From contig CANLCX010000002.1 of assembly GCA_947489315.1 (NCBI GenBank), positions 1 to 64,000 of the forward strand: a stretch of 64,000 nt of DNA. Reading direction: 5' to 3'. The notes beneath the pieces are model-generated. The model did no database searches. It had not been told where the DNA came from and saw only the letters and a list, made by a program, of their open reading frames with translations. The stretch comes from an uncultured Sphingomonadaceae bacterium (GTDB taxonomy: Bacteria > Pseudomonadota > Alphaproteobacteria > Sphingomonadales > Sphingomonadaceae). How positions within the stretch are numbered: the first letter of the stretch is position 1; every line of letters starts with the position of its first letter. The position numbers were made by a program, and so were the translations under genes. This document shows, one piece after another, positions 4,444 to 9,737 of the stretch.

Positions 4444-7125
4444 TCATCCCTTTTTTGCGAGCGCCGCCTGAGCCGCCGCAAGCCGCGCAATTGGGACGCG
4501 ATATGGCGATGCACTGACATAGTCTAATCCGGTTTTTTCGCAGAACGCTATAGAGGCCGGATCACCGCCATGTTCGCCGCAAATGCCCAATTTGATGTCA
4601 GGTCGAGCGGCCCTACCCCGCTCTGCCGCCAGTTCGATCAATTGTCCGACGCCTTCAATATCGAGACTGACGAACGGATCACGCGGGAAAATGCCCTTAT
4701 CGACATATTGGGTCAGGAAACGACCGGCATCGTCGCGGGAGACGCCGAGCGTGGTCTGGGTTAAGTCATTGGTACCAAAGCTGAAAAACTCTCCATGCTC
4801 AGCAATTTTTCCGGCCATCAGCGCGGCACGCGGCAGTTCGATCATGGTGCCGACCAGATATTCGATCCGGCGACCTTTTTCGGCGAAGACTTCCTCTGCC
4901 ATGCGATCGACTGCGTCTTTCATCAATTCCAGCTCTCGGGCGGTAGCTACCAGCGGGATCATAACCTCTGGAATGGGCGCTTCGCCGCTGGCTTCAGCTA
5001 TTTCACAGGCGGCTTCAAATATCGCGCGCGCCTGCATTTCGTAGATTTCAGGATAGGTGACACCCAGGCGACACCCGCGATGACCCAGCATGGGGTTAAA
5101 CTCATGCAGCTCATTGGCCCGCTGTTTCAGCGTTTCTACACCAACGTTCGCAGCAGCGGCCACTTCTTCAAATTCTGCCTGATGATGCGGCAAAAATTCA
5201 TGCAATGGCGGATCGAGCAGCCGGATTGTGACCGGCAATCCGACCATGACTTCGAAAATCTGACGGAAATCTTCGCGTTGTTCCGGCAATAGCTTGGCCA
5301 GCGCTTCCCGTCTGCCTGCTTCCGTGGAGGCCAGGATCATCTGGCGAACCGCAGTAATCCGGGATGTTTCAAAGAACATATGCTCGGTCCGGCACAAACC
5401 GATACCTTCTGCTCCAAAATCACGCGCAACCCGGCAATCCTGAGGCGTTTCAGCATTGGTACGAACACCCAGACGGCGGACTTTGTCGGCCCATACCATC
5501 AGAACACCAAAATCACCGACCAGTTCAGGCTGGATCGTCTTCACGCGCCCCGCCATCACTTGACCGTTGCTGCCATCGATGGTCAGGACATCGCCTTCTT
5601 TCAGCTCCCGATCGCCGATTTTCAGCAATTTTGTCTCATTGTTAATGCTCAGGCTACCCGCGCCGGAAACACACGGACGGCCCATGCCACGTGCGACCAC
5701 AGCAGCGTGTGACGTCATGCCACCACGGGCCGTCAAAATGCCTTTTGCGGCATGCATGCCGTGAATATCTTCCGGCGAGGTCTCTACCCGCACCAAAATC
5801 ACGTCCTCGCCCATTTCTGTGCGGCGTTCAGCGGTATCAGAATCAAACACGATGACCCCGCAGGCGGCACCGGGAGACGCTGGCAAACCGGTGGTCAGCA
5901 CATCGCGTTTGGCGTCGGGATCAAGCGTAGGATGGAGCAACTGGTCCAGTGCCATCGGATCAATCCGCGCAACCGCTTCTTCTTCGGTAATCAGGCCATC
6001 ATTGACCATATCCACCGCTATCTTCAGCGCCGCCTTCGCGGTGCGCTTACCCGAACGGGTTTGCAGCATCCACAATTTGCCGCGCTCTACGGTGAACTCA
6101 ATATCCTGCATGTCACGATAATGGCGCTCGAGCAAATCGAACACATTCGTCAGCTCGCCATAAGTCTCCGCCATCGCCTCTTCCATCGACAATGGCTTGG
6201 CATTGGCTTGTTCGCGTGCGGCTTTGGAGAGATATTGCGGGGTGCGGATACCGGCAACGACATCTTCGCCCTGCGCGTTGATCAGCCATTCGCCATAATA
6301 AGCGCTGTCGCCCGTAGACGGGTTGCGGGTAAAGGCCACACCGGTTGCCGATGTTTCGCCCATATTGCCGAAAACCATCGCTTGCACGTTGACGGCGGTG
6401 CCCCATTCCGCGGGAATATCGTTGAGCCGGCGGTAAACCTTGGCGCGCTCGGCCTGCCAGCTGCCAAAAACAGCGCTGATTGCGCCCCAGAGCTGGTCAT
6501 TCACATCTTGCGGGAAAGGCTTGCCCCATTGTGCTTCAACAAGGCCCTTATATTCCGCAACCAGCGCCTTCCAATGCTGAGACTCCATCTCAGTATCAGT
6601 GAAGAAGCCATTATCTTCTTTGATAATTTCTAACGCTTCTTCAAAAGCATCATGATCCAGTTCCAGCACCACATCGGAATACATTTGGATGAACCGGCGA
6701 TAGCTGTCCCAGGCGAAGCGCTCGTCACCAGAGGTTTTAGCCAGACCTTCAACCGTTTGGTCGTTCAGGCCGAGATTAAGAACCGTATCCATCATCCCCG
6801 GCATCGACGCGCGCGCGCCGGAGCGGACAGATACCAGCAGCGGGTCAGCCGCGTCGCCAAATGTCTTGCCGGTGACGGCTTCGATATGCGCTACGCCCTG
6901 CACCACTTCAGCGCTCAGACTGTCGGGATAGGCCCCGTCATCCTGCATGAAGCGCGTGCACATTTCGGTCGAGATCGTGAAGCCGGGAGGAACCGGCAGA
7001 CCAATATTGGCCATTTCGGCGAGATTGGCGCCCTTACCGCCCAAAAGATTGCGGGCTTCGGTGCTATCGGTTGGCGCGCCATCTGCGTCCACGCCACCAC
7101 CGAAACGATATACATATTGGGTCAT
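4444..7125 (-). CDS. ppdK: Pyruvate, phosphate dikinase
   Basis: A full-length 893-residue enzyme. The N-terminal ATP-grasp domain begins Tyr-Val-Tyr-x-Phe-Gly-Gly-Gly and includes Leu-Leu-Gly-Gly-Lys-Gly-Ala-Asn. The central swivelling domain has Gly-Gly-Met-Thr-Ser-His-Ala-Ala with the phosphorylated histidine, and the C-terminal PEP/pyruvate domain has Gly-Ile-Cys-Gly-Glu-His-Gly-Gly-Asp-Pro. It interconverts ATP, phosphate and pyruvate with AMP, pyrophosphate and phosphoenolpyruvate, a pyruvate/PEP node step. The open frame through the upstream CVNF repeat array stops with TAA one base before its ATG. Confidence 0.97.
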   Translation of the reverse strand: MTQYVYRFGGGVDADGAPTDSTEARNLLGGKGANLAEMANIGLPVPPGFTISTEMCTRFMQDDGAYPDSLSAEVVQGVAHIEAVTGKTFGDAADPLLVSVRSGARASMPGMMDTVLNLGLNDQTVEGLAKTSGDERFAWDSYRRFIQMYSDVVLELDHDAFEEALEIIKEDNGFFTDTEMESQHWKALVAEYKGLVEAQWGKPFPQDVNDQLWGAISAVFGSWQAERAKVYRRLNDIPAEWGTAVNVQAMVFGNMGETSATGVAFTRNPSTGDSAYYGEWLINAQGEDVVAGIRTPQYLSKAAREQANAKPLSMEEAMAETYGELTNVFDLLERHYRDMQDIEFTVERGKLWMLQTRSGKRTAKAALKIAVDMVNDGLITEEEAVARIDPMALDQLLHPTLDPDAKRDVLTTGLPASPGAACGVIVFDSDTAERRTEMGEDVILVRVETSPEDIHGMHAAKGILTARGGMTSHAAVVARGMGRPCVSGAGSLSINNETKLLKIGDRELKEGDVLTIDGSNGQVMAGRVKTIQPELVGDFGVLMVWADKVRRLGVRTNAETPQDCRVARDFGAEGIGLCRTEHMFFETSRITAVRQMILASTEAGRREALAKLLPEQREDFRQIFEVMVGLPVTIRLLDPPLHEFLPHHQAEFEEVAAAANVGVETLKQRANELHEFNPMLGHRGCRLGVTYPEIYEMQARAIFEAACEIAEASGEAPIPEVMIPLVATARELELMKDAVDRMAEEVFAEKGRRIEYLVGTMIELPRAALMAGKIAEHGEFFSFGTNDLTQTTLGVSRDDAGRFLTQYVDKGIFPRDPFVSLDIEGVGQLIELAAERGRAARPDIKLGICGEHGGDPASIAFCEKTGLDYVSASPYRVPIARLAAAQAALAKKG

Positions 7126-7155
7126 ATTATGATCTATCTCCGAAATTTATCGGCG

Positions 7156-7178
7156 CAAAGTTCACACACATCACAGGG
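7156..7178 (-). repeat. CVNF repeat unit, ppdK-proximal copy
   Basis: This 23-base unit is identical to the copy at 55595-55617, some 48 kb away on the other strand. It contains two TGTGA words nine bases apart and ends in the shared core GTGTGAACTTTG. In frame it reads Pro-Val-Met-Cys-Val-Asn-Phe. Confidence 0.8.
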
Positions 7179-7236
7179 TGCAATTCGCCAGCCATATCAT
7201 CATTCTGATTCATCATGTGATCCACCTTCGCCTTTT

Positions 7237-7259
7237 CAAAGTTCACACGGTTCACAGGC
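7237..7259 (-). repeat. CVNF repeat unit, middle copy
   Basis: The minus strand carries TGTGAAC-CG-TGTGAAC followed by TTTG, so the half-repeat structure is especially clear here. In frame it reads Pro-Val-Asn-Arg-Val-Asn-Phe, the only copy with Arg in place of Cys in this array. Confidence 0.75.
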
Positions 7260-7287
7260 CTATTCTCGCCTAAATCTCCCCACACCA

Positions 7288-7364
7288 GTGCTCCGCACTT
7301 GATGCGGAGCCTAGGATGGCTGTCACGGCCGTCTACCTTGGGCTCCGCATCAAGTGCGGAGCAC
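7288..7364. repeat. 24-base inverted repeat, each arm itself a hairpin
   Basis: The left arm (7288-7311) and right arm (7341-7364) are exact reverse complements, separated by 29 bases. Each arm also folds on itself through CTCCGCA/TGCGGAG around a CTTGA or TCAAG loop. The left arm matches the hairpin at 55-79 for its first 23 bases. The layout resembles bacterial interspersed mosaic elements or REP pairs; it could form a cruciform or stop transcription weakly, but no T run follows. Confidence 0.75.
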
Positions 7365-7395
7365 GGGTATCCTGATATATGTGCGTTCTCTGCCC

Positions 7396-7418
7396 CAAAG
7401 TTCACACAATTCACAGGG
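7396..7418 (-). repeat. CVNF repeat unit, glyS-proximal copy
   Basis: The unit begins 18 bases after the glyS stop codon on the same strand. It carries TGTGAAT-TG-TGTGAAC then TTTG, reading Pro-Val-Asn-Cys-Val-Asn-Phe in the shared frame. Confidence 0.75.
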
Positions 7419-7436
7419 TGTCGATCGGCAATCACA

Positions 7437-9737
7437 TCATCCCTCAATCTTGGAAAAGTCAGCGACCTGATGCACCGCCGCGCGGAAACGGGCGAGCAGC
7501 CCAAGCCGCGCAGTCCGTTTGTCGTCGTCGCTGTCATTCACCGTCACATCCTCGAAAAACTGGTCAATTGGCGCGCGCAGATCGGCGAGCGCGGTCATGG
7601 CTTTTTCAAACGCTTCCGCCGCAATGGCAGCCGTCACATTCGGTTGCGCCGCATCCAGCGCGTCGATGAGAGCCTTTTCGGCTTTTTCGGGCGTGTAGGA
7701 AAGGGTTTTTACGCTGCTGTACTCCTGCGAAGGCAGGAGTCCATCTCCGGCGGTTGCGTCTGTCTGCTCGAACGGGAGATGGGCACCTGCCTGCGCAGGT
7801 GCACTGCCTTCTCCCAACTCTTTCTTCAAGATGTTCGAAGCGCGCTTATAGCCGGCGAGCAGGTTTACGCCGTCCTCAGTCACTACAAAAGCCTGCAAAG
7901 CCTTCACGCGGGCCAGTAAGCGCACCAGATCATCTTCTCCGCCCAGCGCAAAAACCGCATCGATGAGGTCATGGCGGACGCCCGCCTCGCGTTGTTGGAC
8001 TTTTAGACGGTCGGTCAGGAATTCTAGAACATCATCGATAATTGGGCCGCGGGCTTCTATTTCCGCGGTCACACTTTTGGCGGCAATCGTGGATTTTTTG
8101 ACAGCTTCCATAGCAAAGGCGGTGCCTAACTTCCCATCACCCATATATTCTTTTGCAATCTCAAGTCCAGTTGTTGAATCAGCCAAACTCGGGAGAGGGA
8201 TAATTTCACTCAATGCCGAAGCAACAGTTCTTTTTACAGGAAATGTGAGATCTCTCTCGATTAAAATCCTAATGATACCAAGCGCCGCGCGTCTCAAAGC
8301 AAATGGATCCTTCGACCCCGTCGGCTTTTCACCAATCGCGAAAAACCCAACCAGCGTATCCAGCTTATCCGCCAAACTCACGCACACCGTCACCGGATCG
8401 GTCGGCACATCATCGCCCTGCCCAACCGGCTTGTAATGATCGCGGATCGCATTGCTCACCGCAATCGGCAAGCCCTCTTTCTCTGCATAATAGCCACCCA
8501 TTAAGCCTTGCAGCTCGGGGAACTCGCCGACCATTTCGGTGACGAGATCAGCTTTGCAGAGACGTGCAGCCAGTTGAGTCTGTTCTGGGTTGGCACGGTG
8601 TAACCCAGTCCCTTCTAAAGACGCCAACCTCTCAGCCAACTTGGCTACACGCTCTACCTTGTCGGCAACCGTTCCCAATTTCTCATGGAACACAATGTTG
8701 CTCAATTTCTTGGCATGATCTTCCAGCGCCGTCTTCTGGTCGAGTTCCCAGAAGAATTTGGCGTCGGACAGTCTTGCCGTCAGTACTTTTTCATTGCCTG
8801 CCGTAATCGCTTTGCCACCATCGCTGGCGTCAATATTTGCGGTACAGACAAAATTCGGAGCCAGTTTACCCGATTTATCGCGGCAAATGAAGTATTTTTG
8901 GTTCACTCGGGCGGTGAGCTGAATGACCTCTTCCGGAACATCCAAAAACGCCGGATCAAAGCCGCCCAGCAACGGCACGGGCCATTCGGTCAGGCCAGCA
9001 TTTTCAATCACTAGGCCCTCGTCGGAAACCAGTTCCAGGCCGCCATCGGATGCCGCCTTGGCCGCACCGTCCCGAACAATCGCTTCGCGTTCGGCCTGAT
9101 CGACCAATACATGGCAGGCGCGCAGTTTTTCGGCATAATCACCGGCATTGCCGATGGTTATCATGCCCTCATGGTGGAAGCGGTGGCCGACGGTTTCATA
9201 ACCTGACGTCACGCCGTCAATTTCACAGGCGACCAGATCATCACCCAATATCGCGACAATGCCTGACAAAGGCCGCACCCAACGCAGGCTTTCCGTCGAA
9301 GCACTAGCATCGCCCCAACGCATGGATTTGGGCCATGGGAAGGCTTTGATAATCGCCGGGATGGCTTCGGACAGCACATCGCTGGTTGCCCGGCCTGGCT
9401 TGTTGATCACCGCGAACAGGGTCGGACGACCCTTGACGTCGCGCACCTCCAGTTGATCGCGGGTTACGCCATTTTTGCGACAGAATCCGTCAACCGCTTG
9501 ATCGGGCGCGCTTTCTGGAGGGCCTTTGGCTTCTTCGCTCACGGCTTCGGTCTGCGCTGGCAGGTCCTTTGCGATCAGCGCAAGCCGCCTTGGCGTCGAG
9601 TAAACGGTAACGGCACCGGCTTTCAGGCCAGCATCGCTTAGTTGCGCGACAAACAGCCGCTCTAGATCAACGCGAGCCTTGGCCTGCATGCGGGCTGGAA
9701 TTTCTTCAGAGAGCAGTTCGAGCAGGAAATCAGCCAT
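7437..9737 (-). CDS. glyS: Glycyl-tRNA synthetase beta subunit
   Basis: The 766-residue protein starts [15 protein letters not shown], as GlyS does, and carries the central Gly-Gly-Tyr-Tyr-Ala block and a C-terminal anticodon-binding helical domain. With GlyQ it forms the alpha2beta2 enzyme that charges tRNA-Gly. I chose the ATG at 9737, which overlaps the glyQ stop by one base; an ATG at 9752 is also in frame. It is longer than E. coli GlyS (689 residues). About 30 residues come from a palindromic repeat element read in frame (7721-7802), falling between Ile-Leu-Lys-Lys-Glu and the final domain. Confidence 0.95.
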   Translation of the reverse strand: MADFLLELLSEEIPARMQAKARVDLERLFVAQLSDAGLKAGAVTVYSTPRRLALIAKDLPAQTEAVSEEAKGPPESAPDQAVDGFCRKNGVTRDQLEVRDVKGRPTLFAVINKPGRATSDVLSEAIPAIIKAFPWPKSMRWGDASASTESLRWVRPLSGIVAILGDDLVACEIDGVTSGYETVGHRFHHEGMITIGNAGDYAEKLRACHVLVDQAEREAIVRDGAAKAASDGGLELVSDEGLVIENAGLTEWPVPLLGGFDPAFLDVPEEVIQLTARVNQKYFICRDKSGKLAPNFVCTANIDASDGGKAITAGNEKVLTARLSDAKFFWELDQKTALEDHAKKLSNIVFHEKLGTVADKVERVAKLAERLASLEGTGLHRANPEQTQLAARLCKADLVTEMVGEFPELQGLMGGYYAEKEGLPIAVSNAIRDHYKPVGQGDDVPTDPVTVCVSLADKLDTLVGFFAIGEKPTGSKDPFALRRAALGIIRILIERDLTFPVKRTVASALSEIIPLPSLADSTTGLEIAKEYMGDGKLGTAFAMEAVKKSTIAAKSVTAEIEARGPIIDDVLEFLTDRLKVQQREAGVRHDLIDAVFALGGEDDLVRLLARVKALQAFVVTEDGVNLLAGYKRASNILKKELGEGSAPAQAGAHLPFEQTDATAGDGLLPSQEYSSVKTLSYTPEKAEKALIDALDAAQPNVTAAIAAEAFEKAMTALADLRAPIDQFFEDVTVNDSDDDKRTARLGLLARFRAAVHQVADFSKIEG
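7721..7802. repeat. Palindromic element inserted in frame within glyS
   Basis: Three perfect inverted repeats are packed in 82 bases: ACTCCTGC-GAAG-GCAGGAGT (7721-7740), CCATCTCC (7741-7748) with GGAGATGG (7775-7782), and GCACCTGC-CTGC-GCAGGTGC (7783-7802). The whole is symmetric, hairpin - long stem - hairpin. Read as glyS (minus strand) it encodes Ala-Pro-Ala-Gln-Ala-Gly-Ala-His-Leu-Pro, a peptide of the type often seen when such intergenic repeats are translated. Frame and gene function appear kept. Confidence 0.8.

Follow-up and report, generated by a model that had tools for sequence, protein, structure and literature searches.

Results

A palindromic dimer within the reading frame of glyS

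The window, that is, the whole stretch of DNA analyzed, comprises 64,000 nucleotides (G000:C2:1-64000) of a genome of 3.88 Mb on 11 contigs. On its minus strand lies glyS, which was identified as the gene for the β subunit of glycyl-tRNA synthetase by matches to Pfam PF02092 and DALR_1 within the ORF. As called, this ORF begins five codons upstream of the ATG used here (771-aa form). The features relevant for the following are:

7288 to 7364, no strand assigned: additional palindromic dimer (F2 type), located between ppdK and glyS
7437 to 9737, minus strand: glyS, glycyl-tRNA synthetase β subunit, 766 aa, ATG at 9737
7467 to 7850, minus strand: DALR_1 anticodon-binding domain, residues 630–757, enclosing the insert (Pfam match, coordinates converted)
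7719 to 7804, no strand assigned: F1 element, 86-bp head-to-head palindromic dimer with GT...AC ends
7721 to 7740, no strand assigned: F1 hairpin 1, ACTCCTGC-GAAG-GCAGGAGT
7741 to 7748, no strand assigned: left arm of the F1 inner stem, CCATCTCC
7749 to 7774, no strand assigned: variable spacer of F1
7775 to 7782, no strand assigned: right arm of the F1 inner stem, GGAGATGG
7783 to 7802, no strand assigned: F1 hairpin 2, GCACCTGC-CTGC-GCAGGTGC

The preliminary description of this DNA had reported three perfect inverted repeats in an 82-base segment inside glyS, inserted in frame without breaking the gene. All three, each of 8 bp, were found again base by base (7721-7728/7733-7740, 7741-7748/7775-7782, and 7783-7790/7795-7802), and the reading frame of glyS is uninterrupted across them. 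The repeats are therefore real, but the unit that contains them extends to the GT...AC ends and measures 86 bp rather than 82. No other 90-base stretch of the window contains three perfect, mutually disjoint inverted repeats of 8 bp (loop of 3–40), and 50 mononucleotide shuffles of the 64 kb contained no such cluster. On the glyS-sense strand, F1 folds with −47.9 kcal/mol (z of −6.5); 200 dinucleotide shuffles averaged −27.3 kcal/mol (sd 3.2) and none was as good as the real sequence. Fold z and shuffles thus rule out a chance palindrome. When positions 7000–8000 were compared with Rfam, four matches up to an E value of 1 were obtained, all to microRNA families and far under the gathering scores; they were taken as chance, and a known Rfam family as the identity of F1 was rejected.

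The gap between ppdK and glyS also contains three copies (7156-7180, 7237-7261, and 7396-7420) of a direct repeat of 25 nt, CAAAGTTCACAC..TCACAGG, which surround the F2 dimer. The F2-type repeat is also found inside GlyS of several relatives.

F1 is a dispersed repeat of the genome and the genus

A search of the genome for further copies of the palindrome, as the preliminary description had proposed, yielded 21 BLAST matches on both strands (query 7700-7820; E ≤ 0.001), which by our grouping correspond to 13 places, that is, 12 besides glyS. In an alignment of nine copies, the order hairpin, CCATCTCC, variable spacer, GGAGATGG, hairpin was retained, with compensated changes at 6 of the 24 base pairs; in the left hairpin the first pair is A-U or G-C and the second pair C-G in eight of the nine copies. 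Outside the stems, only GT is largely conserved. The typical length is 86 bp (16 of 21 copies), the copies used for lengths and flanks having been chosen by a regular expression, which partly fixes the lengths. Not one of these 21 copies had three or more matching flank bases, which rules out a MITE with target duplication; the flanks merely lean to pyrimidines, and to T on the left side.

Among the loci inspected in the same genome, other copies lie inside the predicted bioB ORF, near the N-terminus (common to G030), and upstream of the Pfam match in the predicted pntB frame; several more stop, judged by eye, just short of a start codon. The gene pheT (L292, G000:C7:54300-57200) contains an F1-type dimer in frame, which is read in another frame than the glyS copy and thereby speaks against selection for one peptide.

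With a covariance model, F1 was matched in 30 of 32 genomes of the genus, with between at least 2 and at least 83 matches per genome; both strands were counted, and the numbers are lower bounds because 136 candidates per genome were scored. The 136 candidates scored in G024 yielded two matches, one for each strand of the copy in glyS. REPs in the broad sense are multicopy hairpin units of 20–40 bp, often arranged as dimers, and F1 is of this kind. F1 is, thus, a non-autonomous REP-type palindromic repeat scattered over genome and genus.

Position of the insert in the protein

The linker between the motifs ILKKE and YTPEKAEK is 40 aa long in GlyS of the window, mostly 11 aa (range 8–16) in those relatives of the genus that lack an insert, and 14–17 aa in all 20 rows from other groups. 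Because 40 aa compare with 11, F1 adds ∼29 residues, in agreement with the figure of about 30 given earlier. The same description had placed the insert between conserved domains; instead, it lies inside one, the anticodon-binding domain. In an AlphaFold model of GlyS (mean pLDDT 87.3, alignment of 30), residues 644–675 have a pLDDT below 50 and sit between helices 621–642 and 685–706, so the insert is predicted to occupy an inter-helix loop within the DALR anticodon-binding domain. In a sequence pairing with solved GlyRS, residue 645 of the window protein (771-aa form) corresponds to E. coli GlyS 593, a position that falls in the anticodon-binding domain in the account given in PMC8464048. According to the same account, the E. 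coli β subunit minus its 114 C-terminal residues forms an active heterotetramer.

Presence and absence of the insert among relatives, another comparison that had been suggested, is exemplified by the sister row L023 (SH-aLRT 93, quick tree), which is devoid of F1; its linker of 16 aa resembles, by eye, a shortened F2. The opposite pattern, a segment conserved across Sphingomonadales and without other copies, was looked for and not seen. A native conserved linker is ruled out by this comparison of GlyS linkers among relatives.

GlyS of sphingomonads has received inserts at four sites

A total of 210 GlyS loci were collected: 30 from the genus (including that of the window), 100 from the family, and 80 named ones. 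Seven partial or broken loci were left out (L024, L047, L204, L050, L217, L225, and L214), and 203 were aligned. After removal of L038 (masked linker) and four identical duplicates, 198 rows were counted; some of those remaining are near-identical, and they do not all represent independent species. Twenty non-sphingomonad rows were separated by record title. Inserts were labeled with motif patterns written after the inserts had been inspected, and one (L190) was changed by hand from F1 to other.

By these labels, a REP-type insert of any kind was present in 93 of the 178 sphingomonad rows and in none of the 20 others (93/198 overall), leaving 85/178 sphingomonad rows without a labeled insert; within the genus, 19 of 25 rows carried one (L047, with a frame-ending repeat, excluded). 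Four sites were used: site A (near residue 190) in 7, site B (near residue 286) in 19, site E (about residues 383–387) in 65, and site D, the F1 site of the window, in 47 of the 198 rows. Two or three families were stacked in one site-D linker in five rows. By our sorting there are about eight repeat families, which belong to at least four unlike stocks; the number of unlike stocks is put at four or more and not at eight because F3, F6, and F8 have a CGTC-like character in common, F1 has the same ends as F2, and F4 and F5 start alike.

Two measures independent of the labels gave the same picture. Matching and fold tests were applied to those 130 of the 138 labeled inserts that had sufficient length and unmasked sequence; 121 of them matched DNA outside glyS (fetched loci, E ≤ 1e-4), compared with 2/130 core controls of the same length, 3/67 unlabeled inserts, and 1/67 of the controls for the latter. 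A fold z of −3 or lower was obtained for 105/130 labeled inserts versus 0/130 core controls and 6/67 unlabeled inserts. Inserts of at least 10 aa that matched outside DNA were confined to sites A, B, E, and D, except for one near residue 563. This stretch belongs to a hypervariable part of GlyS (about residues 497–570), where inserts of at least 10 aa occur in 123 rows and just this one matches DNA outside glyS. For two inserts, the genome of the carrier itself was searched: the insert of L031 (F4 plus F2) had 45 matches in its genome (G006) and that of L135 (F7) had 18 (G058), in both cases with self-matches and both strands included.

On a tree of the GlyS core, the fewest state changes were 5 for site A, 11 for B, 41 for E, and 30 for D; these counts do not separate gain from loss and are possibly inflated by recombination because the tree was built on glyS itself. 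In the excluded locus L047 (G003), an F7-type repeat at site D (minus strand, about 440-330) terminates the glyS frame early, and roughly the last 100 residues are encoded in a different frame. Either insertion is not always harmless, or this is an assembly error.

Two further kinds of sequence were encountered at these sites. At site D, 53/198 rows, many of the Erythrobacter type (e.g., L153 and L199), have a conserved linker around TGEEDPLALVDDPD, which is weakly folded on average. At site A, L082, L083, L143, L156, and L178 share a non-REP insert around NFGLPxEFFKDKNPT.

REP-type inserts are rare in six control proteins

GlyQ, PpdK, Lon, MutL, AlaS, and PheT served as controls for the comparison with GlyS, and REP-type inserts were rare in them. 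The 195 GlyQ orthologs contained six inserts of 12–14 aa, none of them REP-like by eye. One insert was found in 82 PpdK sequences, a REP-like one of 38 aa in Sphingorhabdus soli (L206). Single-piece matches were lengthened in none of 28 cases for Lon and in none of 30 for MutL. For Lon, G001 has a split match with stops, G022 a partial one, and G013 and G015 lack a proper match; for MutL, G001 and G021 have an internal stop, G022 has two pieces on two contigs, and G013 has no match. None of the 95 single-piece whole-profile matches of AlaS carried a REP-type insert; of the 99 genomes, three gave no match, G033 an incomplete one, and G067 one with an internal stop. For PheT, the match was split by a REP-like in-frame insert in 4 of 94 genomes, the F1-type copy of the genome under study among them; the 90 single-piece matches span 782–820 aa, and inserts of up to ∼25 aa could hide within single matches. 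Four further genomes were partial and one was without a match. The split lon of G001 consists of two overlapping pieces with stops (G001:C1:427747-430178).

Discussion

Relation to known palindromic repeats

E. litoralis and, like it, S. alaskensis are sphingomonads. Together with X. oryzae, they are the species whose tRNA synthetase genes were named as carriers of REPs (Di Nocera et al, 2013; PMC3733652). The CGTC REPs described there are mostly alphaproteobacterial and have a stem of 8–9 bp, a loop of 4–5, a CCA tail, and a head-to-head dimeric arrangement; in some the ends of the spacer are complementary, and some are intragenic. F1 shares stem length, loop length, CCA tail, and head-to-head dimer with them, but has neither an unpaired CGTC, TGTC, or CCTC tag at one end nor a stem that starts with AT; the F3, F6, and F8 inserts of other GlyS proteins are, by eye, CGTC-tagged hairpins. 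GTAG REPs are likewise short hairpin repeats, often dimeric and at times intragenic (PMC3733652). F1 resembles them in its short hairpins, its dimeric form, and its intragenic copy, but carries no GTAG tag, and the sole Y1_Tnp gene found is not beside it. With bacterial MITEs, which are small, non-autonomous, bounded by inverted repeats, known from in-frame fusions, and in many cases duplicate their target site (PMC2229807), F1 has size, non-autonomy, inverted repeats, and in-frame location in common; unlike the target-duplicating ones, it shows a duplication of 3 bp or more at none of 21 copies.

Rickettsia palindromic elements (RPEs) had been proposed as a parallel, which holds for behavior: RPEs lie in frame in conserved protein genes, and a gmk product tested was active (PMC2229807, PMC3767692), just as F1 lies in frame within glyS and pheT. 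That F1 is an RPE does not follow from this likeness, since the host differs; it is a sphingomonad, not Rickettsia, and the closest named GlyS sequences are from Sphingomonadales. The 86 bp of F1 compare with 105–146 bp for RPEs in PMC2229807 and from 84 in PMC3767692, and related RPE repeats are described from Wolbachia. RPE-4, -6, and -7 substitute for each other in one and the same set of genes; in the R. japonica study it was left undecided whether these are hotspots for inserts of differing origin or whether one insert has diverged (PMC2229807, PMC3767692). For glyS, the hotspot reading is favored, because repeats of unlike stocks meet at the same loops, elements are stacked there, and the sister row is empty.

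In-frame palindromic inserts as such are, therefore, already known, from Rickettsia and, within Sphingomonadales, from the tRNA synthetase genes of two species. The apparent novelty is that one essential gene was entered repeatedly by several repeat stocks. Entry of one gene at several loops by several families is not described in parts 1–3 of the results or in the discussion of PMC3733652, and among the matches listed in a search of open-licence papers (titles and abstract starts), none dealt with inserts in glyS, glyS as a repeated acceptor, or the repeat peptides.

How the insert arose and why it persists

It is extremely improbable that a long-established native linker of GlyS is palindromic here by accident: a linker is indeed present without the insert too, as in the rows from other groups, but the copies elsewhere in the genome, the covariation, the results with shuffled sequence, and the lack of the segment in relatives all speak against this explanation. 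Mobilization by a RAYT (Y1 transposase), as proposed for GTAG REPs, appears unlikely, even though the genome has one Y1_Tnp gene. The Y1 mechanism is consistent with a lack of target-site duplication, and the F1 copies are compatible with it in this respect. However, that gene (L021) is flanked on both sides by GTGACAGTTTA-type repeats and, by eye, not by F1; a RAYT beside the F1 element was, therefore, rejected. Moreover, no Y1_Tnp match (E ≤ 0.001) was obtained in the F1-rich genomes G001 (at least 78 matches), G030 (at least 77), G020 (at least 60), and G004 (at least 30; both strands counted, comparison made by eye), and CGTC REPs are without a linked transposase according to Di Nocera et al (PMC3733652). 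Somewhat less plausible still is that the mobilizing machinery prefers places in glyS, in which case the hotspot would reflect where elements go and not what survives. That the insert positions are few and narrow and that elements are stacked in single site-D linkers would fit such targeting, but the loops are four and distinct, the repeat stocks several, the flanks of F1 hardly biased, and the genes adjoining glyS nearly free of inserts.

A function that has been retained, either of the mRNA hairpin in slowing ribosomes or steadying the message, or of the disordered loop in tuning the handling of tRNA by GlyRS, is improbable. The strong hairpins of the coding strand, the repeated hits to the same gene at four loops, and the comparison of L032 with L035 (four synonymous versus one non-synonymous difference in an 81-nt insert) point in this direction. 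Against it, the sister row does without F1, various repeat stocks and frames serve, a labeled insert is absent from nearly half of the sphingomonad rows (85/178), and other pairs are without a clear synonymous excess (L022 versus L032, pS 0.20 and pN 0.19), although the counts are small. A function of the peptide was rejected since the reading frames differ, the substitution counts being too small to judge by. In a related proposal, to which we give the same low probability, the four loops are a recurrent landing platform for several unlike repeat stocks, with a turnover that is not fully neutral; mRNA hairpins or disordered loops would tune the folding of GlyRS or its handling of tRNA, and carrying some element, of whatever kind, would at times be favored.

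Very probably, then, the F1 of glyS is a copy of a selfish REP-type repeat tolerated in a permissive loop of GlyS, and the pattern across the four loops would be due to random insertion combined with a filter imposed by the protein. To judge from the flanks of F1 copies, the element would have entered glyS without target-site duplication. It may persist because the frame used is open through it, the downstream frame is kept, and the inter-helix loop is flexible, and it is presumably translated as a disordered stretch. Over time, the four loops of sphingomonad GlyS would gain and lose palindromic repeats, random insertion followed by filtering according to what the protein tolerates being the likely cause; we infer that the insert is neutral. 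Flexible loops alone leave unexplained why outside-matching inserts are nearly absent near residue 563 (1/123).

In-frame palindromic repeats have so far been debated chiefly for Rickettsia. GlyS of sphingomonads adds a natural insertion map of a bacterial GlyRS, indicating where an essential enzyme tolerates inserts, and its presence/absence pairs can be used for judging whether such inserts are neutral. As the length of GlyS varies with repeat DNA, caution is advisable in annotation and phylogeny.
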